NCBI RefSeq assembly: GCF_018127745.1
Contig: NZ_CP072333.1
Coordinates: forward strand, 372,001 to 436,000
Reading direction: 5' to 3'
Source of the DNA: Porphyromonas sp. oral taxon 275
GTDB taxonomy: Bacteria; Bacteroidota; Bacteroidia; Bacteroidales; Porphyromonadaceae
DNA: 64,000 nucleotides
Under the pieces are notes generated by a model that searched no databases, had not been told where the DNA came from, and was given only the letters and a program-made list of their open reading frames with translations. Of this stretch, positions 1,997 to 62,800 are shown in pieces. Each line of letters starts with the position of its first letter. Position 1 is the stretch's first letter. The position numbers and the translations under genes are program-made.

Positions 1997-2150
1997 CTGA
2001 GGGAAGGCTGTGACGGAGCTGACCGACGGGTCGGACTGGGAAAAGTAATATAATATTTGGGGAGAAATAATATAATTTTTGCCAAAAAGTAATATAATAA
2101 TTTGCCGAAAGTAATATAAGAACTGCGGAAAAGTTATATTATATTTTTCA
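1997..2150. repeat. 22-bp-period array: two GC-rich units followed by five AT-rich units
   Basis: Units start at 1997, 2019, 2041, 2063, 2085, 2107 and 2129, exactly 22 bp apart. The first two resemble the CTGAC/CTGAG family found elsewhere in this window, though degenerate. The last five are AT-rich with a shared TAATATAAT core. On the minus strand the AT units read as TTATATTACTTTT followed by a short GC-containing spacer. The five AT units match the array at 56628-56737 in inverse orientation. Confidence 0.85.
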
Positions 2151-10424: not shown

Positions 10425-11390
10425 CTATCGCAGACGAAGGACATCGCCTTCCTCTGGGACGTAGTCGCCATCCTTATTGTTGAGCTTGTATAGTCGGTCC
10501 AGACGGATGCCGTAGCGCTGCGCGATGTCGTGCATGGAGTCTCCGATGCGGACGGTGTAGGTGCTGTAGCGTGGGGTGGCCTCCGTGTTCTTCGTCTCGA
10601 GGTAGACGATGTCGCCCTCGCTGAGGGGGTAGTCCAGCGGCGTATCGTTGTACTTAGCGAGCTTCTTGGCAGGGATGCCCATGTCCTCGGCGATGCGCTC
10701 GTAGCTGTCGTTCTGATCCGCCAGTACATACAGCAGGCCGTAGCTGATGTAGGCACGGCGCTGGGGCTGGTCGTAGTGACGCTCGGGGCGGCGCGGGCTG
10801 CGGGAGCTGCGCGCCTCGGCACCAGTATACCAGCTGGGGGTATTGCCGTGGTCGAAGGTGTAGAGCTCGTAGTCCTCGATGACCTTGATGAGCATGTTGG
10901 CGTAGCCCTTGTTGGTCGCGTAGCCACAGAGCTGTAGCCCCTGGGCCCAGCCGCGGTAGTCATCGTAGCGCAGGGCGAAGAGGCGCTGGTAGCGCTTGCC
11001 CTTGAGGAAGGCAGAGTGGTCCTCGTAGGATTCTCTCGCTGAGGGGTAGGAGCGGAAGCAGTCGTTGGGGCGGTCGTCCTTGTGATAGGTGCGCTTGCCC
11101 GTCCAGCTGTTGTGGCACTTGATGCCGAAGTGGTTGTTATGCTCCAGCGCCAGCATGCTGGAGCCAGCGCCCGTCTCGATGAGCCCCTGCGCCAGGGTGA
11201 TGCTGGCGGGGATGGCGTAGCGATCCATCTGTCGCTTGGCCTCGGGGCTGAAGCTCCGTATATAGTCCATGTAGGACTGCTTACGCGGGGTCTGTGCGGA
11301 GAGCGTGACGAGGCTAAGGAGGCTCAGACAGAGGGCGAGGGCCATGCTGTAGAGACTCCGTGCGCGGCTGAGTGCGGGGCAATTATTCAT
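10425..11390 (-). CDS. Exported glucosaminidase (GH73-like) with two LysM repeats
   Basis: 321 aa. An N-terminal signal peptide (hydrophobic 14-30, cleavage probably after TLSAQ) is followed by a mannosyl-glycoprotein endo-beta-N-acetylglucosaminidase-like domain (about 38-190), which hydrolyses peptidoglycan glycan strands. The likely catalytic Glu72 is in ITLAQGLIETGAGSS, followed by NNHFGIKCH. Two C-terminal LysM-like repeats (about 205-255, with YVLADQNDSYERIAEDMG; about 272-321, with YTVRIGDSMHDIAQRYG) should bind peptidoglycan. It is the first gene of the purM-prfA-pyrF-lpx cluster, with a -7 box 48 nt upstream. Its substrate specificity is not shown by sequence. Confidence 0.88.
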   Translation of the reverse strand: MNNCPALSRARSLYSMALALCLSLLSLVTLSAQTPRKQSYMDYIRSFSPEAKRQMDRYAIPASITLAQGLIETGAGSSMLALEHNNHFGIKCHNSWTGKRTYHKDDRPNDCFRSYPSARESYEDHSAFLKGKRYQRLFALRYDDYRGWAQGLQLCGYATNKGYANMLIKVIEDYELYTFDHGNTPSWYTGAEARSSRSPRRPERHYDQPQRRAYISYGLLYVLADQNDSYERIAEDMGIPAKKLAKYNDTPLDYPLSEGDIVYLETKNTEATPRYSTYTVRIGDSMHDIAQRYGIRLDRLYKLNNKDGDYVPEEGDVLRLR

Positions 11391-11595: not shown

Positions 11596-11705
11596 CCCGA
11601 GCTATCCCTCGAGGCTCCTGACGGATATCCCTCAGCTCGCTGACCGACGTCCCTCACGGCGCTGACCGATACCCCTCGCGGGGCTGAGGGATATCGGTCG
11701 GGAGG
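11596..11705 (+). repeat. 22-bp-period quasi-palindrome array (four units plus one degenerate)
   Basis: Units start at 11618, 11640, 11662 and 11684. A partial unit precedes them at 11596. Unit 1 begins CTGACGGATATCCCTCAG; the others vary in the half-sites (CTGACCGACGTCCCTCAC, CTGACCGATACCCCTCGC, CTGAGGGATATCGGTCGG), each plus a 4-nt spacer. The array lies between the lpx-cluster promoter and the udp promoter. Confidence 0.88.
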
Positions 11706-11852: not shown

Positions 11853-12731
11853 ATGAGTAGCAAGCGCATCATCCCCTCCTCCGAGCTGATCATCAATGCC
11901 GATGGCTCGGTCTTCCACCTGCATCTGCGTCCCGAGCAGCTCGCCGATAAGGTCTTCCTCGTCGGAGACCCCGCGCGTGTCGATATGGTGGCCTCCCGCT
12001 TCGAGCGCATCGAGTGCAATGTGTCGAGCCGTGAGTTCCACACCATCACGGGCTACTATCAAGGCAAGCGCATCACCGTCGTCAGCCACGGCATAGGTAC
12101 GGACAACATCGACATCGTGCTCAACGAGCTCGACGCCCTGGCCAACATCGACTTCGAGACGCGCCAGATCAAGGATGAGCTACGCCAGCTGACGCTGGTG
12201 CGTGTCGGCACCTCGGGCGGCCTGCAGGACGAGACGCCCATCGGCAGCTACGTGGCGGCGGTGCACTCTGTCGGCTTCGACGGCGTGCTCTACTTCTACG
12301 CTGATAGCCAGCGGGTGCGTCATCGTGCCTTCGAGGAGGCGCTGATCCAGCAGCTGGACTGGCAGCTAGAGGGCCTGCGTCCCTACGTCGTGCCAGCAGA
12401 TCCCTCCCTCATCGAGCAGATCTGCGGCAGCGATATCCTGCGCGGGAACACCATAGCGGCCAACGGCTTCTACGGCCCTCAGGGACGCCAGCTGCGCCTC
12501 GCGCTGCAGGACCCTGGGCTCAATGCCAAGATCCAGGCCTTCGACCACGAGGGGCTGCGCCTGACCAACTACGAGATGGAGAGCTCTTCGCTCGCGGGGC
12601 TGGCGGCCCTGATGGGGCACCGCGCTATGACGGTCTGCTGCATCATCGCCGGGCGCAAGGCGCAGAACATGAATACCGACTATAAGGGCAGCATCGAGGG
12701 GCTCATCGACCTCGTCCTCGAGCGTATCTAG
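11853..12731 (+). CDS. Nucleoside phosphorylase (uridine phosphorylase-like)
   Basis: 292 aa, PNP/UDP family. These enzymes cleave the N-glycosidic bond of nucleosides with phosphate for base salvage. Conserved pieces are VFLVGDPARVDMVASRF, SREFHTITGYYQGKRITVVSHGIGTDN, LVRVGTSGGLQDETPIGSYVAA and the nucleoside-binding YEMESSSLAGLAALMGHRA. The annotation as uridine phosphorylase is by family resemblance; purine specificity cannot be excluded. ATG at 11853 follows the -7 box. It is followed after 14 nt by crcB. Confidence 0.88.
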   Translation: MSSKRIIPSSELIINADGSVFHLHLRPEQLADKVFLVGDPARVDMVASRFERIECNVSSREFHTITGYYQGKRITVVSHGIGTDNIDIVLNELDALANIDFETRQIKDELRQLTLVRVGTSGGLQDETPIGSYVAAVHSVGFDGVLYFYADSQRVRHRAFEEALIQQLDWQLEGLRPYVVPADPSLIEQICGSDILRGNTIAANGFYGPQGRQLRLALQDPGLNAKIQAFDHEGLRLTNYEMESSSLAGLAALMGHRAMTVCCIIAGRKAQNMNTDYKGSIEGLIDLVLERI

Positions 12732-13153: not shown

Positions 13154-14476
13154 ATGATCCTACTGGACGATCTCTATCAGCTCTATCTCGAGCACCCTAC
13201 GGTATCGACCGATACGCGGCGCCTTAGCCCGGGCTGTATCTTCTTTGCCCTCAAGGGGGCGAACTTCGACGGTAACCGCTACGCGCGCCAGGCGCTCGAG
13301 GCGGGGGCGGCCTACGCCGTGCTGGACGATCCCGAGCAGCTCATCGACGAGCGCACCCTCCTCGTGGAGGATGTCCTCACGAGCCTGCAGCAGCTGGCCG
13401 CCCACCACAGACGGCAGCTGGGGACGCCCATCCTGGCGATCACGGGGACCAATGGCAAGACGACTACCAAGGAGCTGACGGCCGCCGTCCTCTCCGCACG
13501 CTACCCCATCCTCTACACCGAGGGTAACCTCAACAACCACATAGGCGTGCCGCTGACGCTCCTACGCCTCGGCCCCGAGCATCAGTGGGCGATCATCGAG
13601 ATGGGGGCCAGCCACCCTGGGGACATCGCCGAGCTCTGCGCGATTGCCGACCCCGACTACGGGCTCATCACCAACATAGGCGCGGCGCACCTCGAGGGCT
13701 TCGGTTCGCTCGAGGGCGTACGGGCTACCAAGGGCGAGCTCTATGACCATATCCGTGCCAAGGGGGCGCAGCTCTTTGTCAACGCAGATGATCCCATGCT
13801 GCTGGAGATGAGCGCGGGCGTAGCGCGCCATACCTATGGGACGAACTCCGAGGCCGAGCTGCGCGGCGAGGTGCTCCATGAGGACGGATCGCTGCAGCTA
13901 GCGCTGCGCTACCGCTCGGGGGACTATGAGGGGCGTCTTGCCACCCAGCTCGTGGGGGACTACAACCTGCCCAACGTGCTGGCGGCGCTCGCCGTGGGGA
14001 GCTACCTCGGCGTGCCCTATGCCGCTATGGAGGAGGCCTTAGCCCGCTACGCGCCCAGCAACAGCCGCTCCCAGCTCATCGAGACCGAGCGCGGCAATCG
14101 TCTCATCGCCGACGCCTACAATGCCAATCCCTCCAGCATGCACACCGCCCTGCAGAACTTCCTCGCCATCCCTCAGACTCCAGGACAGGGGCGTGTCCTG
14201 ATCCTCGGGGATATGAACGAGCTCGGTGCGGCGAGCAAGGCCGCGCACCACGAGCTCCTCGAGGAGATCCGTCGCGCAGGGCAGCCGCTGCGGCTCTACC
14301 TCTGCGGGCCCTGCTGGATGCGTGAACTGGCAGCACACCCCAACCCCGAGGTGGCGGCCTTCGCCGAGGTAGGGGAGCTCATCCAGAGCCTCCAGGCCAC
14401 GCCCATCAGCGATAGCCTCGTCCTCATCAAGGGCTCCAACGGGATCAAGCTCGGCAGTGTGCTGGAGCATCTGTAG
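13154..14476 (+). CDS. murF: UDP-N-acetylmuramoyl-tripeptide--D-alanyl-D-alanine ligase
   Basis: 440 aa, a Mur ligase. MurF adds D-Ala-D-Ala to the UDP-MurNAc-tripeptide in the last cytoplasmic step of peptidoglycan precursor synthesis. The N-terminal domain holds STDTRRLSPGCIFFALKG. The ATP-binding motif is ITGTNGKTTTKEL at 96-108, followed by EGNLNNHIGVPLTLL and EMGASHPGDIAELC, with a C-terminal domain around ADAYNANPSSMHTAL. It is last in the plus-strand unit and ends 31 nt before a strong hairpin. Confidence 0.96.
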   Translation: MILLDDLYQLYLEHPTVSTDTRRLSPGCIFFALKGANFDGNRYARQALEAGAAYAVLDDPEQLIDERTLLVEDVLTSLQQLAAHHRRQLGTPILAITGTNGKTTTKELTAAVLSARYPILYTEGNLNNHIGVPLTLLRLGPEHQWAIIEMGASHPGDIAELCAIADPDYGLITNIGAAHLEGFGSLEGVRATKGELYDHIRAKGAQLFVNADDPMLLEMSAGVARHTYGTNSEAELRGEVLHEDGSLQLALRYRSGDYEGRLATQLVGDYNLPNVLAALAVGSYLGVPYAAMEEALARYAPSNSRSQLIETERGNRLIADAYNANPSSMHTALQNFLAIPQTPGQGRVLILGDMNELGAASKAAHHELLEEIRRAGQPLRLYLCGPCWMRELAAHPNPEVAAFAEVGELIQSLQATPISDSLVLIKGSNGIKLGSVLEHL

Positions 14477-14507
14477 CCCTTTCCCTGCCTTGCCCTAGAG
14501 CAAAGCA

Positions 14508-14546
14508 GCGCCGCCCCCTCATTCGTAGCGAGTGAGGGGGCGGCGC
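14508..14546. terminator. Bidirectional terminator between murF and the SusCD operon
   Basis: GCGCCGCCCCCTCA (14508-14521) pairs perfectly with 14533-14546 (14-bp stem, 11-nt loop). On the plus strand TTCTATAT follows. It sits between the convergent ends of murF (14476) and the DUF4302 gene (14596). Confidence 0.75.
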
Positions 14547-14595
14547 CTTCTATATCGTCGTGGAGCGCGCTCGTGGCGCCCTCAGGAAGGGAGGC

Positions 14596-15897
14596 TTATT
14601 CGCCCTTGACCCATACCTGACTATTGGCGACGGAGGTGAAGATCTGATAGCGGCTATTGCTGGGATCCTCACTGAGCACGTAGGGGGACTGCGCCACGAT
14701 ATAGGCGTAGAAGCGATCCATCGCGCGGCGGCCGTAGAACCATGAGAGGCCCTGCTGGATCATGCGCGTCATGTGCAACTGCTTCGGCTCGTTGTAGACC
14801 GAGGTGAAATCCGCGTAGTAGTCCACCCAGTTGCTGAAGTAGTAGCCGGCATCCAGGTAGCTGCCCATCAAGGGCATACTGCGCTGCATCATCCCCAGGT
14901 GCAGGGTGAAGATGTAGCTGCCTGGGTAGCTATCCAGCGCCTGCGTCTGGTCGGCCTGTCGCGTCTCCGCTAGGAAGGCCTCCGAGGCATAGCCGTCGTA
15001 GAAGTAGAGCTGCATGTAGCGGCGCGTCAGGTCTACCTCGCCCTGATAGAGCGCCAGCTTCTGGCGGCCGTCGGGTGTCGTCATCGACTGCTTGTCGGCA
15101 CTGAGGTGGAGCGCTGTGAGGCTGTCGCTACCCGCGACGTAGGGGCGCAGCAGCTCGATGCCCTGAGGGGTGTAGTGGAAGGGGAGCAGCTCCTCCTTGC
15201 CGCCCGAGCGTAGGCTCAGCTGACGTGCGAAGCCGAAGATGGAGAGCTCGTACTGCTTGCCCCCGAGTGTGATGGGCGCCAGTGCCTTGCCCTGCAGCTC
15301 CTGCTTCATAGCGAAGCACCGCTGCAGCTGGTCCTTGTCGCCACTGCTACGGCGCGTCAGGCGCATGGGGGTCTTGGTACGCGCGCCCTGCAGGTAGATG
15401 GTGTTGTGGTCGCGGCTGATGGAGTCCACGCGGAAGGTGAAGTCCCCGTTGTAGGAGTTGGGGACGCCCCAGCCAGGATTGGACCAGCTATGCAGTGCTA
15501 CGTTGAAGGTGTCGAAGGTCAGCTGGATGCCGCCCCTGTCCGTCAAGTGGTAGGTCGAGCCGAACTCCGTCTTGGTGACCGCCTCTAGGTCGCTCTGGGG
15601 ATTGGTCACGACGGCGGGGATGGTACCGCCCTTCTGGTAGGCTTCGCTGCTCATGACGACCTCCGAGGCGGAGGTGAAGCGCATCGAGAGGTTGATCCCA
15701 CCGAAGTTGCCCCCGTCGGGGATGAGGACGAGATCCCAGCCCTCAGCGCTGGAGCGCAGCGCCGTGCGGATATCCTCAAGGCCCTGGGCAATGCGGGTCG
15801 AGGGGTACTGATCGTGGCTGGGGTAGTCCTCGTACTGGGCACAGGAGGCTAGGAGGCCTAGTGCTAGGAGGCCGGAGAGTAGGGGATAGGTGCGCAT
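14596..15897 (-). CDS. DUF4302-type lipoprotein of a SusCD operon
   Basis: 433 aa. The N-terminal signal (MRTYPLLSGLLALGLLASCAQ) ends in a lipobox with Cys19, so it should be lipidated and reach the outer membrane. The body has GWDLVLIPDGGNFGGINLSMRF and a TYHLTDRGGIQLTFDTFNVALHSWSNP region resembling the DUF4302 family, which occurs in Bacteroidetes next to SusC/SusD and metallohydrolase lipoproteins. Biochemical function is unknown. It is the last gene of the operon, 3 nt after the metallohydrolase, and a surface accessory role in substrate capture is inferred from context only. Confidence 0.75.
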   Translation of the reverse strand: MRTYPLLSGLLALGLLASCAQYEDYPSHDQYPSTRIAQGLEDIRTALRSSAEGWDLVLIPDGGNFGGINLSMRFTSASEVVMSSEAYQKGGTIPAVVTNPQSDLEAVTKTEFGSTYHLTDRGGIQLTFDTFNVALHSWSNPGWGVPNSYNGDFTFRVDSISRDHNTIYLQGARTKTPMRLTRRSSGDKDQLQRCFAMKQELQGKALAPITLGGKQYELSIFGFARQLSLRSGGKEELLPFHYTPQGIELLRPYVAGSDSLTALHLSADKQSMTTPDGRQKLALYQGEVDLTRRYMQLYFYDGYASEAFLAETRQADQTQALDSYPGSYIFTLHLGMMQRSMPLMGSYLDAGYYFSNWVDYYADFTSVYNEPKQLHMTRMIQQGLSWFYGRRAMDRFYAYIVAQSPYVLSEDPSNSRYQIFTSVANSQVWVKGE

Positions 15898-15900
15898 GAT

Positions 15901-16815
15901 CTAGTAGCCTTTAGGGTAGTGGGAGAAGTCCATCGAGCCGACCAGCGCCAGGCGGCGCTGCACCTCGGCACGCATCACATCCAGGTCGGCAGCGTACTCG
16001 TCGCGCAGGTACTTCTTCATGATCTCGACCTTCGCAAGGATGATCTGGCGCCCTGTGTACTGTGCGTCGCTGCGGTTGCGCCCGTCGGCGCCCGTCAGCT
16101 TGGCCTGCCATTCGCTGTCCGAGTCAAGGAGGTAGTAGGCGAAGAGCTCGGCGAAGTCTTCGTCAGGGTCCGTGCTGGCGTAGTCCGAGACGAAGCCCGC
16201 GCGCAGCGAGCTCTGTCCCGTGCGCGTCCAGTAGAGGAAGGCGTCCTGCTTCTGATACTCAAGGGAGGAGAACTTATCGTACTCGGGGGGATAGGCGCGC
16301 TCCTCGTGCAGCGTGTGGGCCGACTCGTGGAAGAGCACGCTGATGAAGTTGCTTCGCAGCAGGCTGTTGTCCTGTATGTCGAGGTTATTGATGTCGTAGA
16401 TCCAGATCTCACCCTGCGGTGCGGCCCCTAGCATCTTACGGTCGATGCCGTAGCCTGAGGATCCGAAGAGGCTGAGGTACTTGATCGTGTGCTCCTCGAG
16501 ATAGCCCGAGGGCGTCGCGGAGCGGTAGGAGCCGAAGAAGACGTAGTCCATGACGTTGAGGAACTCCAGTATCTTGCTCTCCAGCGCAGGGGCGAGCAGG
16601 AAGCGGCGGTCGGTATTGCTGTCGTCGTAGCGGTAGCGTATCGAGACGTTGTACTCCTTGGCGAAGTGCTGCTCTATGTAGCGATCTAGGCGGCTCTTGG
16701 ACTGTGCCTGCTGGGTGAAGACCCTAGCCTTGCCGTCGACGATGTCGCTGTCGGGCGAGCAGCCAGCTAGGAGGCCGAGCACGCCGATGAGGGCGGTGGT
16801 GATGATTTTCTTCAT
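15901..16815 (-). CDS. Substrate import-associated zinc metallohydrolase lipoprotein
   Basis: 304 aa. A lipoprotein signal peptide (MKKIITTALIGVLGLLAGC, Cys19) precedes a domain with a zincin motif HESAH (163-167) in ISVLFHESAHTLHEE. A downstream acidic segment, DPDEDFAELFAYYLL, could supply the third zinc ligand. It resembles the Bacteroidetes lipoproteins (TIGR04549 type) encoded next to SusC/SusD pairs. A zinc peptidase or hydrolase acting on the imported substrate at the cell surface is the natural inference. The substrate is unknown. It starts 15 nt after susD and ends 3 nt before the DUF4302 gene. Confidence 0.85.
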   Translation of the reverse strand: MKKIITTALIGVLGLLAGCSPDSDIVDGKARVFTQQAQSKSRLDRYIEQHFAKEYNVSIRYRYDDSNTDRRFLLAPALESKILEFLNVMDYVFFGSYRSATPSGYLEEHTIKYLSLFGSSGYGIDRKMLGAAPQGEIWIYDINNLDIQDNSLLRSNFISVLFHESAHTLHEERAYPPEYDKFSSLEYQKQDAFLYWTRTGQSSLRAGFVSDYASTDPDEDFAELFAYYLLDSDSEWQAKLTGADGRNRSDAQYTGRQIILAKVEIMKKYLRDEYAADLDVMRAEVQRRLALVGSMDFSHYPKGY

Positions 16816-21736: not shown

Positions 21737-21824
21737 CTGAGGGATATCCCTCGCGGCACTGACTGACGGCACTCAGCAGCCTGACGGACGTCCCTCAGAG
21801 CGCTGACTGATATCCCTCAGCCGC
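21737..21824 (+). repeat. 22-bp-period quasi-palindrome array (four units)
   Basis: Units at 21737, 21759, 21781 and 21803. They begin CTGAGGGATATCCCTCGC, CTGACTGACGGCACTCAG, CTGACGGACGTCCCTCAG and CTGACTGATATCCCTCAG, each followed by four variable bases. The array lies about 170 bp upstream of the SusCD -7 box. Confidence 0.9.
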
Positions 21825-22041: not shown

Positions 22042-22158
22042 TCCCCAGCGGGGCGACCCGCTCAAAGCCCAGGGTGAGGGAACGCTGCAGGCGTGACGGA
22101 ACCCTGGGTCAGGCAACACCATACACAAAGAGCCCTACAGGGGCGACCCTCAAAACAG
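22042..22158 (-). repeat. Nested palindromic element, reverse orientation (diverged copy)
   Basis: This copy has the same outer order as the elements at 1490-1604 and 1758-1873: a CCCCAGCGGGGCGACCC end, CAAAGCCCAGGGT, AACCCTGGGT, then AGCCCTACAGGGGCGACC. The inner hairpin has diverged (ACGCTGCAGGCGT replaces CAGCCCTGTAAGGGC) while remaining self-complementary, which suggests the fold rather than the sequence is conserved. Confidence 0.75.
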
Positions 22159-22200
22159 GTAAGAGCAAGGTCGAAGCGTATCTATTGTAGCCTTACGAAG

Positions 22201-22319
22201 GCTTTGAGGGTCACCCCTGTAGGGCTTTAATATCTATTTGCCTGAGCTACCCAGGGTTTGGTCGCCCTTACAGGGCTGCGCACCCTGGGCTTTGGACGGG
22301 TCGCCCCTGAAGGGCTTTC
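22201..22319 (+). repeat. Nested palindromic element, forward orientation
   Basis: It contains CCCAGGGTTTGG and CACCCTGGGC arms around GCCCTTACAGGGC, as in the copies at 776-891 and 1136-1251. It faces the element at 22042-22158, about 42 nt away, forming a second convergent set. Confidence 0.8.
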
Positions 22320-22545
22320 CCAATCCGCCCGAGCAGTATGTAGGACTGGCCAGCTCATCCCGATCTATCCTATCCGTTGGCAAAATATCAAAGGGAGCGC
22401 TATCTGTTTGCTTGTTTGGAGGAGGCCTTGTTCCTAGTCCTTGTCCTGCCGTCTGCCCCCAAGGTGCCTCGAGCTTGCGGAGCAAGGATAGGAGCTAAAT
22501 GCCTAACTTCGCAGTAAGCCTGATACCTAGCCTCGTCTACTACCT

Positions 22546-32903: not shown

Positions 32904-32991
32904 TTGAGGGATATCCCTCAGCGCGCCCACTGCCGTCCCTCAGCTCCCTGACTGCCGTCCCTCAGCGGGCTGACCGATATCCCTTAGGAGA
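32904..32991 (+). repeat. 22-bp-period quasi-palindrome array (four units)
   Basis: Units at 32904, 32926, 32948 and 32970: TTGAGGGATATCCCTCAG, CCCACTGCCGTCCCTCAG, CTGACTGCCGTCCCTCAG and CTGACCGATATCCCTTAG, each plus 4 nt. The first unit is an almost perfect 18-bp palindrome. Confidence 0.9.
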
Positions 32992-38670: not shown

Positions 38671-39080
38671 ACGATAGCGCTAGGGGATAAGGGGGAAAGG
38701 CTCCCAGCGAGAGCCTCCTCCATAGCTGGCCGTAAGGCCTAGCCAAGGGAGCAAGATGCCCCTGCAAAGCTCAGCTATAAGGGGGAGCCGTTCTGAAGGA
38801 TACCCGTCAAGGCGCTGAGGGACGTCCCTCAGCGCCTTGACGGACGGCAGTGAGCTCCGCGAAGGGTATCCCTCGCGGAGCTCTGCCTTAGGTGGCTACC
38901 TTGCTCTACCTCCTTCCCGCTCTCGCCCCAGGAGCCTAGGACGGAGCTTTGCCCCCCGCTCCCAGCATCCCTTGCGGCGGCAATAAGTACCCGAAAAGCA
39001 AGGGACTGCGAACCTTTGGGCAGGCAGCGAGGTTTTATATACGTTCACATACATATTACTCACACTTTTACCTGAACGTT
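38671..39080. other. Intergenic region between the DUF389 and PepSY-like genes
   Basis: Contains a 22-bp-period array (38793-38880). A weak -7 box AACCTTTG (39011-39018, first T replaced) precedes an AT-rich leader (GGTTTTATATACGTTCAC) before the PepSY-like ATG. A frame open from 38949 runs through this leader but is not supported as coding. Confidence 0.6.
38793..38880 (+). repeat. 22-bp-period quasi-palindrome array (four units)
   Basis: Units at 38793, 38815, 38837 and 38859: CTGAAGGATACCCGTCAA, CTGAGGGACGTCCCTCAG (a perfect 18-bp palindrome), TTGACGGACGGCAGTGAG and GCGAAGGGTATCCCTCGC, each plus 4 nt. The third and fourth are shifted or degenerate. Confidence 0.85.
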
Positions 39081-39571: not shown

Positions 39572-40282
39572 ATGAGACGATATCTCCTGACCCTACTCTT
39601 GGCTAGCCTCGGGCTACCTCTATCCACCTCTTCGACGCTGCAGGCGCAGACGACGAGCCCCGCCACTACCCAGAGCTACGAGCTCATCAAGCTACCCTAC
39701 GCCAGCGATGCCCTAGCGCCTGTCATCAGCAAGCGCACGGTGGAGCTACATCACGGCAAGCACCTGGCGGGCTACGTCTCCAAGCTGAACAGCCTCCTCA
39801 AGGAGTCGGGCATGCCGGGCTCGGACCTGGTGCGCCTGGTGCGCTACAGCTCGGGGGCTATCTTTGACAACGCGGGTCAGCTGCTCAATCATAACCTTTA
39901 CTTCCTACAGTTCCGCCCTGCCACAGCCGAGGCGACCAAGCCCGTAGGAGCATTGGCCAAGATGATCGAGGCGTCTTATGGGAGCTTCGAGGCCTTCCAG
40001 AAGGCCTTCGAGCAGGCAGGGGTCTCTATCTTCGGATCGGGCTGGCTGTGGCTGGCCTGCGACGCCGAGGGCAAGCTCTACATCGATAAGGAGCCCAATG
40101 CGGGCAACCCCGTAGTACGTGGGCTGACGCCCCTCCTCGGGATCGACATCTGGGAGCATGCCTACTATCTAGACTATGAGAACCGCCGTGCCGAGCACCT
40201 CAAGCAGGTATGGCGTATCATCGACTGGGAGGTCGTGGGCAAGCGCTACGACCGCCGTGCCGAGGGGGTCCGTCCCTACTAG
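39572..40282 (+). CDS. sod: Exported Fe/Mn-type superoxide dismutase
   Basis: 236 aa. Residues 1-26 form a signal peptide (MRRYLLTLLLASLGLPLSTSSTLQAQ), unlike cytoplasmic SodB of relatives. The catalytic domain (about 36-225) aligns over its full length with iron/manganese SODs, which convert superoxide to peroxide and oxygen. Metal ligands are His60 (VELHHGKH), His107 (LLNHNLYF), Asp192 and His196 (IDIWEHAYY). Gln103, three residues before Asn106, matches the Fe-type glutamine position. The usual KHH is KHL and the outer tryptophans are Leu/Phe. A periplasmic role is inferred. A hairpin follows at 40306. Confidence 0.92.
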   Translation: MRRYLLTLLLASLGLPLSTSSTLQAQTTSPATTQSYELIKLPYASDALAPVISKRTVELHHGKHLAGYVSKLNSLLKESGMPGSDLVRLVRYSSGAIFDNAGQLLNHNLYFLQFRPATAEATKPVGALAKMIEASYGSFEAFQKAFEQAGVSIFGSGWLWLACDAEGKLYIDKEPNAGNPVVRGLTPLLGIDIWEHAYYLDYENRRAEHLKQVWRIIDWEVVGKRYDRRAEGVRPY

Positions 40283-40443: not shown

Positions 40444-40531
40444 CTGACTGCTATCCCTCAGCCCTCTGACTGCTATCCCTCGCGGCGCTGACGGACGTCC
40501 CTGAGCTCGCTGACTGATATCCCTCAGAGGC
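40444..40531 (+). repeat. 22-bp-period quasi-palindrome array (four units)
   Basis: Units at 40444, 40466, 40488 and 40510: CTGACTGCTATCCCTCAG, CTGACTGCTATCCCTCGC, CTGACGGACGTCCCTGAG and CTGACTGATATCCCTCAG, each followed by 4 nt. The period is exact and the units are the most regular of the family. The array is followed by GGCCTCCCCCTT, as also at 51709. Confidence 0.92.
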
Positions 40532-40712
40532 CTCCCCCTTGGGATAGCACTTCGCGGGGGAGCTTCGTCCCTTCGCTGGATGAGCGGGGAGGCCAAGGCG
40601 CGGGCTGGTCTGCAGCTCGCTTCGGTCGAAGGTGACGAGGAGTTCGGGCTAAGAGAGGCCGCGTGGAGGGGGCGAACTGAACCCTGCCCCCCAAGGCTTG
40701 TTATAGCTATAC

Positions 40713-41855
40713 ATGACGAAGCAAAGCAGATATCTCTACGCCCTACGCCGCCGCCTCGGGCTGATGCAGCTCCCCTTGCCTACGGAGTTCTTCACGCTCC
40801 CCGTGGGGCTGGTGCTGAGCCTTTTCCTCTCGCCCTTGCTGGCGCTCCTAGGGGCAGCCCTTGGCCTGGGTCTTGGCATCCTGCTGCTGTGGCTGGTGGG
40901 GGGGCTCGCGGCCAATCGTCCCAGTGTGGGGCGCTCGCTCTTCGTCCTGCTGCTCTGGGCGACGCTGGTCCTCAGCTTCGATGACTTCTATGAGCACCCT
41001 CTGTGGCTGCAGTCGCTGCTGCTCTTCAGCTACATCACCAGCAGCCTCGTGGCTGGGATCTATCGCTGGGGACGGGATCGCTGGGGTACGCGTAGCTGTG
41101 GCTGCATACGCACGCGCATCCTTAGAGAGGAGCGGCTACGCTTCGAGCGCATCCTCATCGCCTTCTCTCTGGTGACGCTCTGTGCCATCTCGACCTGCGT
41201 CCACCTCTGCCCCGTGGAGTGGGGCGAGCTACTGCAGTACTTCGCGATCTTCGTGGCGCTCTTCACCTGGGGCGTCTATGCCTTCGAGTCCCTGCACCTG
41301 CTGTGGGTCAATAAGCGCCTAGACCGCGAGCAGTGGATCCCCGTAGTGGGCGACCAACAGCAGCAGCTGGGGCGCGTGTCGCTGACTGATGCGCGTAGCG
41401 ACCAGGGGCGCCTGCCCGTGGTGCGCCTGATGGCTACCACAGGCGACATGCTCTACCTGGAGCACTCCGAGCGGGAGCAGCTGCCGATTGCCGCGGGCTA
41501 TGACACGCCCTTCGTCAGCTGGCTCACCGAGGGCTGCCGCCCCGAGGCGCTGGCGCAGCTGCTGATCGATCAGCGCTTCTGCGGCGTACGCCGAGCCCGC
41601 CCGCGCTTCCTCCTGCACTACCATGAGACGCTAGAGAGGCAGCCGCTCAGCGTCTACCTCTACGCCGTCGACATCGCTGAGCCCAGCCAGCTGCTCGTAG
41701 ACTGTCAGCCGCAGCAAGGGCGCTGGTGGCCGCTGGAGCACATCACCGCGCAGCTCGAGCAGCTGGATTTCGCCCCTTATCTACGTGCGGAGTTACCCTA
41801 CCTCGAGCAGACCATCCTCTTGGCGCAGCGCCTGCGTCAGGGCGCTAGCCTCTAG
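40713..41855 (+). CDS. Membrane protein with C-terminal Nudix-like domain lacking a Nudix box
   Basis: 380 aa. The N-terminal ~200 residues carry about six hydrophobic helices (LPVGLVLSLFLSPLLALLGAALGLGLGILLLWLVGGL and others). The C-terminal part (about 210-360: EQWIPVVGDQQQQLGRVSL, LPVVRLMATTGDMLYLEHS, RFLLHYHETLERQPLSVYLYAVDI) resembles the strand pattern of Nudix hydrolases. The GxxxxxExxxREUxEExGU catalytic box is not recognisable, so hydrolase activity is doubtful. I do not know a characterised homologue. It is followed after 24 nt by an RsmI-like methyltransferase and two more methyltransferase genes, probably in one operon. Confidence 0.6.
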   Translation: MTKQSRYLYALRRRLGLMQLPLPTEFFTLPVGLVLSLFLSPLLALLGAALGLGLGILLLWLVGGLAANRPSVGRSLFVLLLWATLVLSFDDFYEHPLWLQSLLLFSYITSSLVAGIYRWGRDRWGTRSCGCIRTRILREERLRFERILIAFSLVTLCAISTCVHLCPVEWGELLQYFAIFVALFTWGVYAFESLHLLWVNKRLDREQWIPVVGDQQQQLGRVSLTDARSDQGRLPVVRLMATTGDMLYLEHSEREQLPIAAGYDTPFVSWLTEGCRPEALAQLLIDQRFCGVRRARPRFLLHYHETLERQPLSVYLYAVDIAEPSQLLVDCQPQQGRWWPLEHITAQLEQLDFAPYLRAELPYLEQTILLAQRLRQGASL

Positions 41856-46343: not shown

Positions 46344-46431
46344 CTGACCGATATCCATCAGCGCTCCTCAGGGATATCAGTCAGCTAGGCCGAGGGATAC
46401 CCATCGGCGTGCTGATGGGTATCAGTCAGAG
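46344..46431. repeat. 22-bp-period quasi-palindrome array with mixed half-site order
   Basis: Units at 46344, 46366, 46388 and 46410. The first reads CTGACCGATATCCATCAG. The second and fourth contain GGGATATCAGTCAG and ATGGGTATCAGTCAG, in which the CTGACTGAT half-site is on the right rather than the left. The third is CGAGGGATACCCATCGG. The period is kept while half-sites are exchanged. Confidence 0.85.
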
Positions 46432-46596: not shown

Positions 46597-49500
46597 GTGA
46601 AGAAACGAAAACAAGAGCTCGACCTCCCGAGCTTCCACTTCCCGAGCTACCTGACGCAGGCGGCGAAGGGACAGCTGCAGCGCCTCGATCCTCGGGGTGT
46701 GCTGCGCATCTCTGGCCTCTATGGCAGTGCCTTAGCCCCGCTGGTGGCGGAGCTGCATGGGCAGTCTCCGATCCTCGTGCTGCTGCGCGATGAGGAGGAG
46801 GCGGGCTACCTCTATTCCGACCTCGAGCAGCTGCTGGGGCGTGAGGCCGTCCTCTTCTTCCCCTCGGCCTACCGCCGTGCACTACGCTACGGGCATAGGG
46901 ACGAGGCGCAGGTGCTGCTGCGCTCCATGGTGCTCAGCCGTCTCAGCGAGGAGGGCGGACGCCTACCCATCCTCATCTCCTACCCCGAGGCGGTGCAGGA
47001 GCTGGTGCCGCCGATGCGTGAGGCCAGCTACGAGCGCTATACGCTCCGCCAGGGGCAGCTGGTGGATCGCGACGAGCTGCGCGATCGGCTGCTGGGCTGG
47101 GGCTTCGAGCGCGTGGACTACGTCTACGAGCCGGGTCAGTTCGCCATCCGTGGGAGTATCTTCGATATCTATTCCTTTAGCTCCGAGCTGCCCTACCGCT
47201 TGGACTTCTTCGATGACGAGCTGGAGAGCCTGCGCCTCTTCGAGGTGGACAGCCAGCTCTCGGTGGAGCGCCTCACGGAGCTGACGCTGAGCCCCGACCT
47301 AGGACAGGCCGAGGACGGCGCGGTATCGCTGCTGGAGCTGCTGCCTGAGGGGCTACGTATCCTCTATAAGGGTAGGGGAGGGCTGCGCGCACGCCTCGTG
47401 ACCAACTGGCAGACAGCCCCCGTGTACCAGGAGGAGGGAGGCTTCCGCTCGCTGGAGGAGGTACAGCGTATGCTGTGCTCCCCCGAGGCCCTGGAGGAGG
47501 AGCTAGCACGCCATGCCAGCTACGAGCTAACGAGTGACCGTGCGGCCGCCGACCTTGTCTTCTCCACGGCAGCCCCGCCGCACTTCCGTAAGGACTATGC
47601 GGCGCTGGCGGCGCAGCTACGCCACTGGCAGGAGGCGGGCTATCAGCTGTGGCTGGCAGCCTCGAGCGACAGCGCCTACGAGCGCGTCGTGGAGCTCCTC
47701 GCCCCACACCTCGCCCCGAACTACCTGCCGCAGCGTGTCCAGGCGACCTACCATGAGGGCTTCGTCGACGAGGCGCACCGCTGGGTGCTGCTTACCGAGC
47801 ACGAGCTCTTCGACCGCTACCATAAGTACAGCCTGCGCAGCGACAAGGCGCGCTCGGGCAAGGTCTCCCTCTCGCTCAAGGAGCTGCAGAGCTTCCACCG
47901 CGGCGACCTCGTGGTGCATGCCGATCACGGCGTGGGGCGCTTCGACGGCCTGGTGACGATGGAGCAGCAGGGCCGCCCGCAGGAGTTCGTCAAGCTCATC
48001 TACAACCGCGGCGACAGCATCTATGTCAACCTCCACAGCCTGCACAAGCTCTCGCACTACCGCGCCGGTGGCGAGCAGTCCGAGGCTAAGCTGAGCACCC
48101 TCGGCACGAGTGCCTGGCAGCGCATCAAGGACAAGACCAAGAAGCGCATCAAGGACATCGCCCGCGACCTGATCAAGCTCTATAAGGAGCGCCGCGAGAG
48201 CGAGGGCTTCGCCTTCAGCCCCGATAGCTATCTGCAGCACGAGCTCGAGGCGAGCTTTGCCTTCGAGGATACCCCCGACCAGGCGGCGGCCACAGCGGCG
48301 GTCAAGGCCGATATGGAGCGTGCCTTCCCCATGGACCGACTGCTCTGCGGGGACGTGGGCTTCGGCAAGACGGAGATCGCCGTACGCGCGGCCTTCAAGG
48401 CTGCTACCGACGGTCGCCAGGTAGCCGTACTGGTGCCTACGACGGTGCTTGCCTACCAGCACTACCGTACCTTCTCTAAGCGCCTGGCAGACTTCCCCGT
48501 CCGCATCGACTATATCTCACGGGCCCGCACGCCTAAGGAGCTCCGCGCCCTGCTCTCGGAGCTAGCCGAGGGCAAGATAGATATCATCATCGGCACGCAC
48601 CGCCTGACGAGCAAGGACGTCCGCTTCCGTGACCTCGGCCTACTGATCATTGACGAGGAGCAGAAGTTCGGTGTCGCCGTCAAGGAGCGCCTGCGTCAGC
48701 TGCAGGTCAACGTAGATACGCTGACCATGAGTGCCACGCCTATACCCCGTACCCTGCAGTTCTCGCTGATGGGCGCACGGGACCTGTCGAACCTCAACAC
48801 GCCGCCCGCCAATCGCCGCCCCGTCGAGACCATGCTCAGTCAGACCTCGCCCCAGGTGATCCGTGAGGCGGTGAACTACGAGCTGAGTCGCGGGGGGCAG
48901 GTCTACTTCGTCAATAGTCGCATCGAGAATATCGAGAGCCTGGCAGGCCTCATCCAGCGTGAGGTGCCCGACGCGCGCATCGCCGTGGCGCACGGCCGAC
49001 TGGCGCCCAAGGAGACCGAGCAGATCCTCACCGCCTTCGCCGCACACGAGTATGACGTGCTGGTCGCGACTAAGATCATAGAGAACGGCATCGACGTGCC
49101 GAACGCCAATACCATCATGATCCACGACGCCCACCACTACGGCCTGAGCGAGCTGCACCAGCTGCGCGGCCGCGTCGGGCGCAGTGACCGCAAGGCCTAC
49201 TGCTACCTGCTGACGCCTCCGCTGTCGGGGCTGAGCGAGGACGCCCAGCGGCGTCTGCGTGCCATCGAGAGCTTCAGTGACCTCGGTAGCGGCATCCGTA
49301 TCGCGCTGCAGGACCTCGATCAACGCGGCGCGGGCAACGTGCTCGGGGCGGAGCAGAGCGGCTTCATCACCGACATGGGATACGAGACCTACCAGAAGGT
49401 CTTCGATGAGGCAATACGCGAGCTCAAGGCCGACGAGTTCGCCGAGGTCTACGCCGAGCAGGATCAGCGCTCTGGGGCAGAGACGGCCGACCGCTTCGTC

Positions 49501-49980
49501 GTGGAGACGCAGGTAGAGAGTGACCTCGAGCTGAGCTTCCCCCAGGACTACGTGCCGCAGGACGGCGAGCGCATCCTCCTGTATCGCGAGCTGGACGGGC
49601 TGACGGAGGACGCGGAGCTGGAGGCCTTCCGTGGGCGCATGATCGACCGCTTCGGGCCGCTGCCCGAGGCTGCCGAGGCGCTCATCCAGGTGCCGAAGCT
49701 GCGGCGTCTCGGGCGTCACCTCGGCATCGAGAAGCTCGTCCTCAAGGGCGGCTCCATGAGCCTGCACCTCATCGCCGACACCGAGAGCGCCTACTACAGC
49801 ACCGAGGTCTTCGGGCGTCTGCTGGGCTATGTGGCGCGCAATAATAGACGCTGCGAATTCGTCCAGCGCTCGGGTCGGCACATCATCCGCATACAGCATA
49901 TACCCACCATCGCGCTAGCCCTCGAGACGCTAGAGCACATCCTCGGGGGCAAGGACTCCGAGGCGACGACCAAGGCATGA
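46597..49980 (+). CDS. mfd: Transcription-repair coupling factor Mfd
   Basis: 1127 aa from the GTG at 46597 (VKKRKQELDLPSFHF). Mfd removes RNA polymerase stalled at DNA lesions and recruits UvrA. Domains in order: UvrB-like N-terminal part (about 20-400), CarD-like RNA polymerase-interacting domain (FHRGDLVVHADHGVGRFDGL), superfamily-2 translocase with Walker A CGDVGFGKTEIA (about 586) and DEEQ box (686-689), SATPIPRTLQFSLMGARDLS, and a C-terminal TRCF domain. The frame is open to 46570, but the -7 box lies inside those codons. The stop overlaps the cobU start (ATGA). Confidence 0.96.
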   Translation: MKKRKQELDLPSFHFPSYLTQAAKGQLQRLDPRGVLRISGLYGSALAPLVAELHGQSPILVLLRDEEEAGYLYSDLEQLLGREAVLFFPSAYRRALRYGHRDEAQVLLRSMVLSRLSEEGGRLPILISYPEAVQELVPPMREASYERYTLRQGQLVDRDELRDRLLGWGFERVDYVYEPGQFAIRGSIFDIYSFSSELPYRLDFFDDELESLRLFEVDSQLSVERLTELTLSPDLGQAEDGAVSLLELLPEGLRILYKGRGGLRARLVTNWQTAPVYQEEGGFRSLEEVQRMLCSPEALEEELARHASYELTSDRAAADLVFSTAAPPHFRKDYAALAAQLRHWQEAGYQLWLAASSDSAYERVVELLAPHLAPNYLPQRVQATYHEGFVDEAHRWVLLTEHELFDRYHKYSLRSDKARSGKVSLSLKELQSFHRGDLVVHADHGVGRFDGLVTMEQQGRPQEFVKLIYNRGDSIYVNLHSLHKLSHYRAGGEQSEAKLSTLGTSAWQRIKDKTKKRIKDIARDLIKLYKERRESEGFAFSPDSYLQHELEASFAFEDTPDQAAATAAVKADMERAFPMDRLLCGDVGFGKTEIAVRAAFKAATDGRQVAVLVPTTVLAYQHYRTFSKRLADFPVRIDYISRARTPKELRALLSELAEGKIDIIIGTHRLTSKDVRFRDLGLLIIDEEQKFGVAVKERLRQLQVNVDTLTMSATPIPRTLQFSLMGARDLSNLNTPPANRRPVETMLSQTSPQVIREAVNYELSRGGQVYFVNSRIENIESLAGLIQREVPDARIAVAHGRLAPKETEQILTAFAAHEYDVLVATKIIENGIDVPNANTIMIHDAHHYGLSELHQLRGRVGRSDRKAYCYLLTPPLSGLSEDAQRRLRAIESFSDLGSGIRIALQDLDQRGAGNVLGAEQSGFITDMGYETYQKVFDEAIRELKADEFAEVYAEQDQRSGAETADRFVVETQVESDLELSFPQDYVPQDGERILLYRELDGLTEDAELEAFRGRMIDRFGPLPEAAEALIQVPKLRRLGRHLGIEKLVLKGGSMSLHLIADTESAYYSTEVFGRLLGYVARNNRRCEFVQRSGRHIIRIQHIPTIALALETLEHILGGKDSEATTKA

Positions 49981-51621: not shown

Positions 51622-51709
51622 GCGAGGGATATCCCTCAGAGGACTGACTGATATCCCTCACGAGCCACAGGGACGTCCCTCAGCCTGCTGACTGATATCC
51701 CTCAGAAGG
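51622..51709 (+). repeat. 22-bp-period quasi-palindrome array (four units)
   Basis: Units at 51622, 51644, 51666 and 51688: GCGAGGGATATCCCTCAG, CTGACTGATATCCCTCAC, CACAGGGACGTCCCTCAG and CTGACTGATATCCCTCAG, each plus 4 nt. It is followed by GGCCTCCCCCTTA, as at 40531. Confidence 0.9.
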
Positions 51710-56585: not shown

Positions 56586-56737
56586 CTGAGGGCCTCGGGG
56601 CGGCAAGCTACCCCGAGGGGCTCGTCGGGGATTCTTATATTACTTCTCGCCGAATATTATATTACTTTCGGCGGAATATTATATTACTTTTGACAGGAAG
56701 TTATATTACTTTTCCCTGAATATTATATTATTTTTCT
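56586..56737. repeat. AT-rich 22-bp-period array (five units, 56628-56737) with degenerate GC-rich flank
   Basis: AT units start at 56628, 56650, 56672, 56694 and 56716. Each carries TTATATTACTT or a close variant (TTATATTATTT in the last), separated by short C/G-containing spacers. The unit at 56672 includes TACTTTTG (56685-56692), a perfect -7-like match. The array is the reverse-oriented counterpart of 2041-2150. The 42 bp before it (56586-56627) start with CTGAGGGCCTCGGGGC, weakly like the GC-type unit. Confidence 0.85.
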
Positions 56738-62415: not shown

Positions 62416-62800
62416 GTCAAGTAGCGTCGCAGTGGGGCGGTCTGTCGCTTCTCCCCCAGAGGGAGGTGAGGAACGTCCGGGCAACGCAGAGCACCATGCT
62501 TCCTAACGGGAAGTCGTCCGTGAGGGCGAAGTAGCGTAACAGAGAATGACCGCCCGCAGCCTCGGCTACGGGTAAGGGTGAAAAGGTGCGGTAAGAGCGC
62601 ACCGAGCCTGTGGTGACATCGGCTGCCGTACGCCTGATGGGTTGCAAGATCATGTATACCGACGTCACGAGGCTTGCTCGGCCCATGTCGGAGGGTAGAT
62701 CGCTTGAGAGGAGTGGTGACACTCCATCCAGATAAATGGCAGACGCCGAGCCTTGGCTCGGTACAGAACCCGGCTTATAGCCCCACTGCCGCTGCTTGAC
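62416..62800 (+). ncRNA. rnpB: RNase P RNA (class A)
   Basis: RNA of about 385 nt, catalytic subunit of RNase P, which removes the 5' leader of tRNA precursors. Conserved blocks are GAGGAACGTCCGGGC (~62468, the P4/CR-I region), ACAGAGAATGACCGCCC (~62539), AGATAAATGGCAGACGCC (~62730) and ACAGAACCCGGCTTATAG (~62764, ending P4/CR-V). The ends pair as helix P1: GTCAAGTAGCGTCGCAGTGG (62416-62435) with the segment ending at 62800 (CCACTGCCGCTGCTTGAC), with two mismatched positions. The extent is set by P1 and could be off by a few bases. Confidence 0.95.

Follow-up and report, generated by a model that had tools for sequence, protein, structure and literature searches.

Phased four-unit palindrome arrays in Porphyromonas intergenic DNA, candidate binding platforms for HU-HIG-type proteins

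Introduction

Downstream of a superoxide dismutase gene, the chromosome of Porphyromonas sp. oral taxon 275 carries four 18-bp quasi-palindromes in tandem, each separated from the next by a few variable bases. What kind of element is this, and which protein, if any, reads it? The array lies in a 64,000-nucleotide stretch of contig NZ_CP072333.1 (positions 372,001 to 436,000; hereafter the window), for which a preliminary description listed arrays with an exact 22-bp period in seven intergenic gaps, together with a degenerate two-unit version. It proposed two readings: a platform on which a dimeric DNA-binding or nucleoid protein would occupy one face of the DNA, and a minisatellite or MITE-like element, possibly related to the BrickBuilt repeats of P. 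gingivalis. It also suggested that further arrays be sought across the genome and in relatives. Here we describe the distribution, anatomy and sequence constraint of the arrays, weigh the explanations for them, and name candidate readers.

Arrays in the window and the genome

With up to three mismatches, the unit pattern matches 37 times in the window against 0.66 expected (0 of 100 shuffles). Across the 2.18-Mb genome, at up to two mismatches, there are 348 forward and 362 reverse matches, which overlap because the unit is near-palindromic, and none for the reversed pattern. A profile built from 31 in-register arrays (the array model) finds 41 arrays, termed family 1, in 436 kb of the chromosome, with none in reversed sequence at E<0.01; the same profile finds 18 in a 200-kb hold-out. 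The search beyond the window thus does yield further 22-bp arrays, and extrapolation from these 59 in 636 kb gives an estimated ~200 family-1 arrays per genome. As had been stated for the window, no array overlaps a gene (41 of 41 lie outside the genes called by our script). A search of Rfam at gathering scores matched none of the arrays in the window, nor any in seven other stretches.

All seven gaps listed in the preliminary description are recovered by the array model (seven of its eight listed places; Table 1). The degenerate two-unit version, given as 1997-2040, is absent from the model's matches, and the array placed at 11596 is real, with its four units at the positions in Table 1 instead.

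Unit number is close to fixed. Four quasi-palindromes are present in 53 of 59 arrays (37 of 41 in the 436 kb and 16 of 18 in the hold-out), by a count able to see one additional unit on either side. A looser count, at up to four mismatches, places a unit-like match one step beyond the array in 4 of 40. The earlier wording, usually four units, therefore holds very strictly. The step is 22 bp in 113 of 122 steps in the 436 kb (23 in 7) and in 50 of 52 in the hold-out, so that the period is exact for nearly all steps, the array at 46344 being an exception.

Table 1. Coordinates of arrays and associated features (window positions unless another genome or stretch is named)
Feature	Location	Strand	Basis or context
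Family-1 array, four units (original finding)	40444..40527	+	Pattern and array model; between the Fe/Mn superoxide dismutase gene 39599-40282 (+) and gene 40713-41855 (+) (Pfam, neighbour)
Family-1 array, four units	11618..11701	+	Array model; divergent gap between glucosaminidase/LysM gene 10425-11390 (-) and phosphorylase gene 11853-12731 (+) (Pfam)
Family-1 array, four units	21737..21820	+	Array model; divergent gap
Family-1 array, four units	32904..32987	+	Array model; divergent gap
Family-1 array, four units	38793..38876	-	Array model; tandem gap
Family-1 array, four units	46344..46429	-	Steps 23, 23, 22; upstream of TRCF/mfd gene 46597-49980
Family-1 array, four units	51622..51705	+	Array model; convergent gap
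Right shoulder, weakly conserved, consensus CCTCCCCCTTAG	40532..40543	+	Follows many family-1 arrays
Two-unit version of the preliminary description	1997..2036	+	Not recovered by array model; abuts family-2 array
Family-2 array, five units, step 22	2042..2145	.	16-bp AT-rich palindrome (AAAGTTATATAACTTT type) plus 6 bp
Family-2 array, five units, step 22	56631..56734	.	AT-rich family 2
REP-like repeat	771-890, 1131-1253, 1485-1600, 1750-1868, 22043-22159, 22195-22320		
REP-like repeat	stretch L002, around 14091-16788		
RNase P RNA, class A	62429-62793		Rfam
Home array of HU-HIG gene	280906 (this genome)		Family 2
Home array of HU-HIG gene	1212432 (this genome) and P. pasteri orthologue 129406		Palindrome AAAACGTATACGTTTT
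Home array of HU-HIG gene	136015 (P. pasteri)		GACCAGTACTGGTC
Home array of HU-HIG gene	510651		CTATATAG type

Anatomy and sequence constraint

The unit consensus is close to CTGA(C/G)(T/G)GATATCCCTCAG. At the dyad stands a pyrimidine-purine step in 124 of 124 units from the 31 arrays, TA or CG in 119 of them. Which of the two is used varies with position: units 1 and 4 carry TA in all 31 arrays, unit 3 carries CG in 24, and unit 2 carries TA in 17 and CG in 13. Similarity between units that occupy the same position in different arrays is 0.767, against 0.726 with unit order permuted (the observed value is reached in none of 2000 permutations), whereas two units of one array resemble each other little more than units taken from separate arrays (0.720 versus 0.712, P=0.05). 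The arrays therefore look like copies of one four-part design and not like recent local duplications, in agreement with the doubt already voiced about simple recent duplication. Tandem 22-bp units are also what slippage would leave, but a minisatellite is extremely improbable given the fixed unit number, the greater likeness of same-position units than of differently placed ones, and the near absence of homogenisation within arrays; we have given up that part of the second reading.

Mean pairwise identity is 0.77 in the cores (0.75 in a larger set), 0.39-0.40 in the spacers and 0.32-0.35 in the flanks. Among the 31 arrays 19 of 72 core columns are invariant, compared with none of 12 spacer columns, and no spacer column exceeds 0.49 identity. 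Such invariant columns beside near-random spacers are not expected from the decay of dead copies. The right shoulder is ~10 bp long (columns 89-98), its best column reaching 1.2 bits and the distal columns up to 0.46.

The two half-sites of a unit do not co-vary: 68.3% are paired, against 69.8% in shuffles. Since the halves vary independently, what is kept appears to be half-sites on double-stranded DNA and not a hairpin. An RNA or single-stranded hairpin (a terminator, an attenuator or a REP-type structure) is therefore very unlikely and was rejected, although RNA folding of the one array examined in this way gave a good score (z -4.3). Compensatory stem changes are absent; orientation relative to tandem genes is about even, with 12 of 22 family-1 arrays in tandem gaps running along the genes; and the arrays lie upstream of promoter-like sites (see below). 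As judged from sequence, the pattern of constraint is more consistent with selection for a protein on double-stranded DNA than with slippage, hairpins or decaying mobile copies. Of the two readings first offered, the platform for a dimeric or nucleoid protein on one DNA face is thus the better. Its support is indirect, coming from the conserved half-site-like cores, random spacers, pyrimidine-purine dyads, lack of stem covariation and the HU-HIG association described below, from which we infer binding itself.

Placement relative to genes and promoters

When all 22-bp arrays in 636 kb and gaps of at least 120 bp are counted, 27 of the 33 divergent gaps of this genome hold an array, as do 42 of the 109 tandem gaps and 6 of the 24 convergent ones. 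In P. pasteri (JCM 30531, genome G004) the corresponding counts are 12 of 28, 27 of 117 and 7 of 13, and the divergent preference is not shown. Gene-ward TAnnTTTG sites, which we take to be the Bacteroidetes -7 element, number 41 between array and gene (2.2 per kb) and 4 beyond the array (0.2 per kb), with none inside it, placing the arrays upstream of promoter-like sites.

Array position is not conserved between the two species. Upstream of orthologous genes an array is present in both genomes in 9 cases, in this genome only in 14, in P. pasteri only in 4 and in neither in 10 (P=0.72); downstream the figures are 2, 5, 5 and 11 (P=1). A stricter comparison requiring both neighbours left 4 usable gaps only. 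An apparent match in P. pasteri at mfd and the phosphorylase gene was discarded as insignificant in the wider orthologue test. This lack of positional conservation argues against gene-specific regulation, and for a chromosome-level role or dispersal by copying. We also rejected an over-regular spacing of arrays, seen in the 436 kb (P=0.019), which weakened when only longer gaps were used (P=0.06) and did not recur in the hold-out (P=0.77).

The layout in related species

The two-unit family-1 pattern is absent from 40 other genomes, of which 24 belong to the genus and 16 to the order, and it has no match in other GTDB species and viral contigs, a set that may not include the own genome. Even the single unit, with 710 matches here, reaches no more than 6 in any one of 25 further Porphyromonas genomes. 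In 1.72 Mb of relatives, outgroups and E. coli, the family-1 model gives one match at E<0.01, a marginal one (E 0.0076) that falls within another 22-bp array of P. pasteri.

The 22-bp layout was traced independently of motif by counting, for each lag, the loci that reach 31 or more matches out of 44, with runs of N masked. At lag 22 this genome has 31 such loci in 436 kb and another 7 in 200 kb, and 16 relatives together have 22 in 799 kb; order outgroups have 1 (389 kb) and E. coli has none (50 kb). Lag 44 aside, the remaining lags that are not multiples of three average 0.0-0.3 loci with a maximum of 3. Among multiples of three, lag 21 gives 11 loci in relatives and lag 18 gives 8 here; such lags can arise from coding sequence, and two relatives carry heptamer repeats. 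On these searches the family-1 motif is private to the species and the 22-bp layout, built from other palindromes, is genus-wide; this is what the suggested comparison with relatives brought out.

A 500-kb portion of P. pasteri holds eight palindrome families in arrays of at least three units. Of these arrays 72 of 72 are intergenic, a tally in which arrays of similar palindromes may appear twice. The GACCTATATAGGTC and GACCAGTACTGGTC families have 22 arrays each, with five units in 10 and 14 of them, respectively; the other six each have between 1 and 8 arrays, with 3 to 14 units per array. Reversed controls gave 0, except 3 and 4 for two smaller families. At a looser threshold the commonest step pattern of the GACCAGTACTGGTC family is 22, 22, 23, 22. 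This motif is private to P. pasteri (225 matches versus 0 in 25 other genomes), and GACCWATATWGGTC is nearly private to it (297 versus 2 and 1 in two others). The AT-rich family 2 is common, among 26 genomes, only to this genome, P. pasteri and G014 (28, 34 and 12, respectively).

Mobile elements and other known repeats

Species-private families, unconserved array positions and the weak right shoulder speak for a non-autonomous mobile element, MITE- or REP-like, in which a four-unit block is copied and the arrays serve a transposase or ride as passengers. P. pasteri adds a near-identical MITE-like element or tail of ~170 bp at 17 places in the 500 kb (e.g. L174 and L165), which carries 22-bp-spaced CTACGTACGTGG-like units, ends in a T-run and by eye adjoins a CTATAT-type unit in 16 of 17 places. 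The earlier MITE-like reading in its general form therefore keeps a low probability, an element with 22-bp units being present in P. pasteri. The same element carries a promoter of Bacteroidetes type, judged by its consensus, and is possibly a small-RNA gene family.

For family 1 itself, copying as a mobile element is nevertheless quite unlikely. Flank identity averages 0.32 over 47 in-register arrays, and just one pair stands out by the likeness of its flanks (0.53, with 0.93 in the core); its two members are 2.9 kb apart. Invariant core columns stand next to randomised spacers, and BrickBuilt-type terminal repeats show no excess near the arrays. The RAYT-like domain Y1_Tnp occurs once in this genome and not at all in P. 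pasteri and G014, both of which have 22-bp arrays.

BrickBuilt of P. gingivalis is described as a MITE with a 23-nt minisatellite of 1 to 22.8 units, present in 19 copies and carrying a leader, a tail and IS5-like terminal repeats (PMC4596501). The same paper lists BrickBuilt_14 of strain ATCC 33277 (its Table 1) beside PGN_0872, a PF00216 DNA-binding protein, and a passage in it mentions 22-nt tandem direct repeats in strain W83, alike in period and genus, with neither locations nor sequences (PMC4596501). BrickBuilt and our arrays are both intergenic and dispersed, belong to the same genus and have tandem units of about two helix turns. Unlike BrickBuilt, the arrays have four units and no leader or tail, the comparison being with the features of the 23-nt unit as described. 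The step and unit number counted above speak against a 23-nt unit in variable copy number; in place of a leader or tail there is only the weak right shoulder; and the four terminal-repeat strings (up to two mismatches) occur 6 times within 300 bp of arrays against 6.4 expected. Family 1 thus departs from BrickBuilt in unit length, unit number, terminal repeats, leader and tail, and its membership in BrickBuilt is unsupported.

REP/BIME elements and REPINs with RAYT transposases are likewise intergenic quasi-palindromes in small groups, but the arrays differ from them in lacking hairpin covariation and in their fixed 22-bp phase. A separate dispersed REP-like repeat (CCCAGGGTTTGGTCGCCCTT..AGGGCTGCGCACCCTGGG with GCCCCAGCGGGGCGACCC partners) does exist in this genome, and the single Y1_Tnp match of the genome (C1:34967-35302) lies inside one of its clusters.

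HU-HIG genes and upstream arrays

In 18 Porphyromonas genomes the HU-HIG family (Pfam PF18291, described as 'HU domain fused to wHTH, Ig, or Glycine-rich motif') has from 3 to 15 matches each, a count that takes in canonical HU; ten of eleven order outgroups have 1-4, and the eleventh has 12. All 9 products tested had HU-HIG as their top Pfam family, and a tenth, taken as control, had canonical HU. One HU-HIG protein was searched by sequence for a solved relative; the best hit (E 0.012) was an unrelated enzyme, and none was convincing.

In this genome and in P. pasteri we noticed HU-HIG genes lying beside known arrays. An upstream array was defined as a lag-22 score of at least 29 of 44 that exceeds every control lag, within 700 bp upstream, a rule fixed after three discovery genomes had been viewed. 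There, an upstream array is present at 5 of the 6 HU-HIG genes of this genome, at 6 of the 7 in P. pasteri and at 4 of the 8 in G014, compared with 0 of 6 canonical HU-like genes, two of which have imprecise starts. One P. pasteri gene counted as canonical (G004:C1:577592) has an array downstream.

Only an independent set counts as a test. There 17 of 40 HU-HIG genes from 13 genomes, the better-scoring ones listed and not a random sample, have an upstream array, compared with 15 of 434 other genes from 15 genomes of the genus that only partly overlap the 13 (P=4e-12). Restricting the background to genes with at least 300 bp free upstream leaves 13 of 109 (P=1e-4); with controls of the same kind, the background is 28 of 81 genes for P. 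pasteri (P=0.012) and 39 of 92 for this genome (P=0.06). By the lag-22 test, 23 of the 40 genes in other species have no array.

The home arrays of HU-HIG genes (Table 1) use different palindromes, several of which belong to dispersed families. The orthologues at 1212432 and 129406 share one palindrome and are 94% identical over 134 aa and 88% over 159 aa, while the orthologues 562677 and 329618, 86-89% identical, carry different arrays. In this genome, genes 562677, 1225201 and 2091038 are near-identical and therefore not independent. They lie about a third of the chromosome apart; two have an upstream AAAAGTGGCTAATCTTTT-type array, and the third a AGGTCTCTAAGCC array followed by the start of the AAAAGTGGCTAATCTTTT type.

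None of the six HU-HIG genes here is preceded by a family-1 array in its 1.4 kb of upstream sequence (best E 0.2). This favours an alternative in which the platform serves a dimeric protein outside HU-HIG, with the arrays as upstream regulatory or insulating sites: architecture and constraint require only some sequence-specific dimer, and divergent gaps are preferred here. The HU-HIG association across 16 genomes taken together counts against it, and we hold it to be rather unlikely. Crp/Fnr proteins were considered as readers because of similar half-site geometry, half-sites such as AAAGT(6)ACTTT presumably resembling theirs. Crp/Fnr operator arrays were rejected, as there is no PF13545 match over cut-off in this genome, G004, G014 and G021, although weak sub-cut-off matches exist, and no Crp/Fnr reader over cut-off in G002, G012, G015 and G017 either.

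HU-HIG proteins are accordingly placed as the best candidate readers of the 22-bp arrays on sequence grounds. For family 1, the gene at C1:1804413 is a candidate only by elimination.

Proposed mechanism

We propose, with moderate confidence in the explanation as a whole, that the arrays are phased platforms read by HU-HIG paralogues, each at its own gene and across the chromosome. An array would be a cooperative binding platform on double-stranded DNA, on which four protein dimers sit side by side on one helix face, one per 18-bp quasi-palindrome and 22 bp (~two turns) apart. The likeliest readers are HU-HIG proteins, which are HU-like members of the HU/IHF superfamily, with each paralogue having its own palindrome family. 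Each paralogue would regulate its own gene through the home array just upstream, and would also occupy dispersed intergenic arrays outside promoters, where occupancy may shape the chromosome or set global transcription. Motif and protein would change between species, so that the dominant families are species-private. Binding, dimers, cooperativity, autoregulation and the chromosome-scale role are what we infer from the observations above.

A further-reaching version, put forward tentatively as a possibility, is a private architectural code on Porphyromonas chromosomes. Every member of a set of HU-HIG proteins would have a 22-bp-phased palindrome array to itself, with a set number of units; the protein would regulate its own gene there, and the array would be copied across intergenic DNA. 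Reader and site would turn over together between species, possibly marking a species' own chromosome, much as centromere DNA does with its binding proteins, or as restriction specificities do. Bacterial architectural proteins of the HU/IHF type are usually regarded as weakly specific and conserved. This genus seems instead to pair several HU-like paralogues with many strictly phased, species-varying site arrays. If this is true, the little-studied HU-HIG family would gain DNA targets and a function, and chromosome-wide binding sites would co-evolve rapidly with their readers in bacteria. With motifs, proteins and home arrays named, the idea can be put directly to the test.

Cooperative binding to tandem sites is familiar from operator arrays such as the met boxes of MetJ and from plasmid iterons, which are few per genome, unlike the ~200 arrays estimated here, with their several families and species-private motifs. 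Among openly licensed papers we found no description of these arrays, passages of PMC5771137 included, and no paper on binding-site arrays for HU-HIG. The arrays are real, constrained, genus-wide in layout and, as far as searched, undescribed, and they are best read as HU-HIG-type platforms. Each known kind of element that was compared with them differs in a defining feature.

Other repeated elements

Weaker CCTTATCCCTCAGCTCG units recur at 22 and 44 bp in the intergenic DNA of this genome, for example beside the array C1:155858-155961, and CCTTA pairs there peak at lag 22 (6) and lag 44 (5) against a mean of 0.4. Two other species, G020 and G017, have in common composite repeats of ~300 bp (L035-L039 and L045-L049, respectively), in which three CCACGTGG units are followed by TTCCTCCGAA units at ~22 bp. 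Some of these composites are flanked by runs of a TTAGAGR heptamer. An Rfam match to the FopS small RNA (RF04319) lies at L032 18924-18998 of P. pasteri. In P. catoniae (L249, 4195-4346) the spacer of a 22-bp array is itself near-palindromic (TCGCATTTGCGA type) and alternates with GGTATATTGG-type units.
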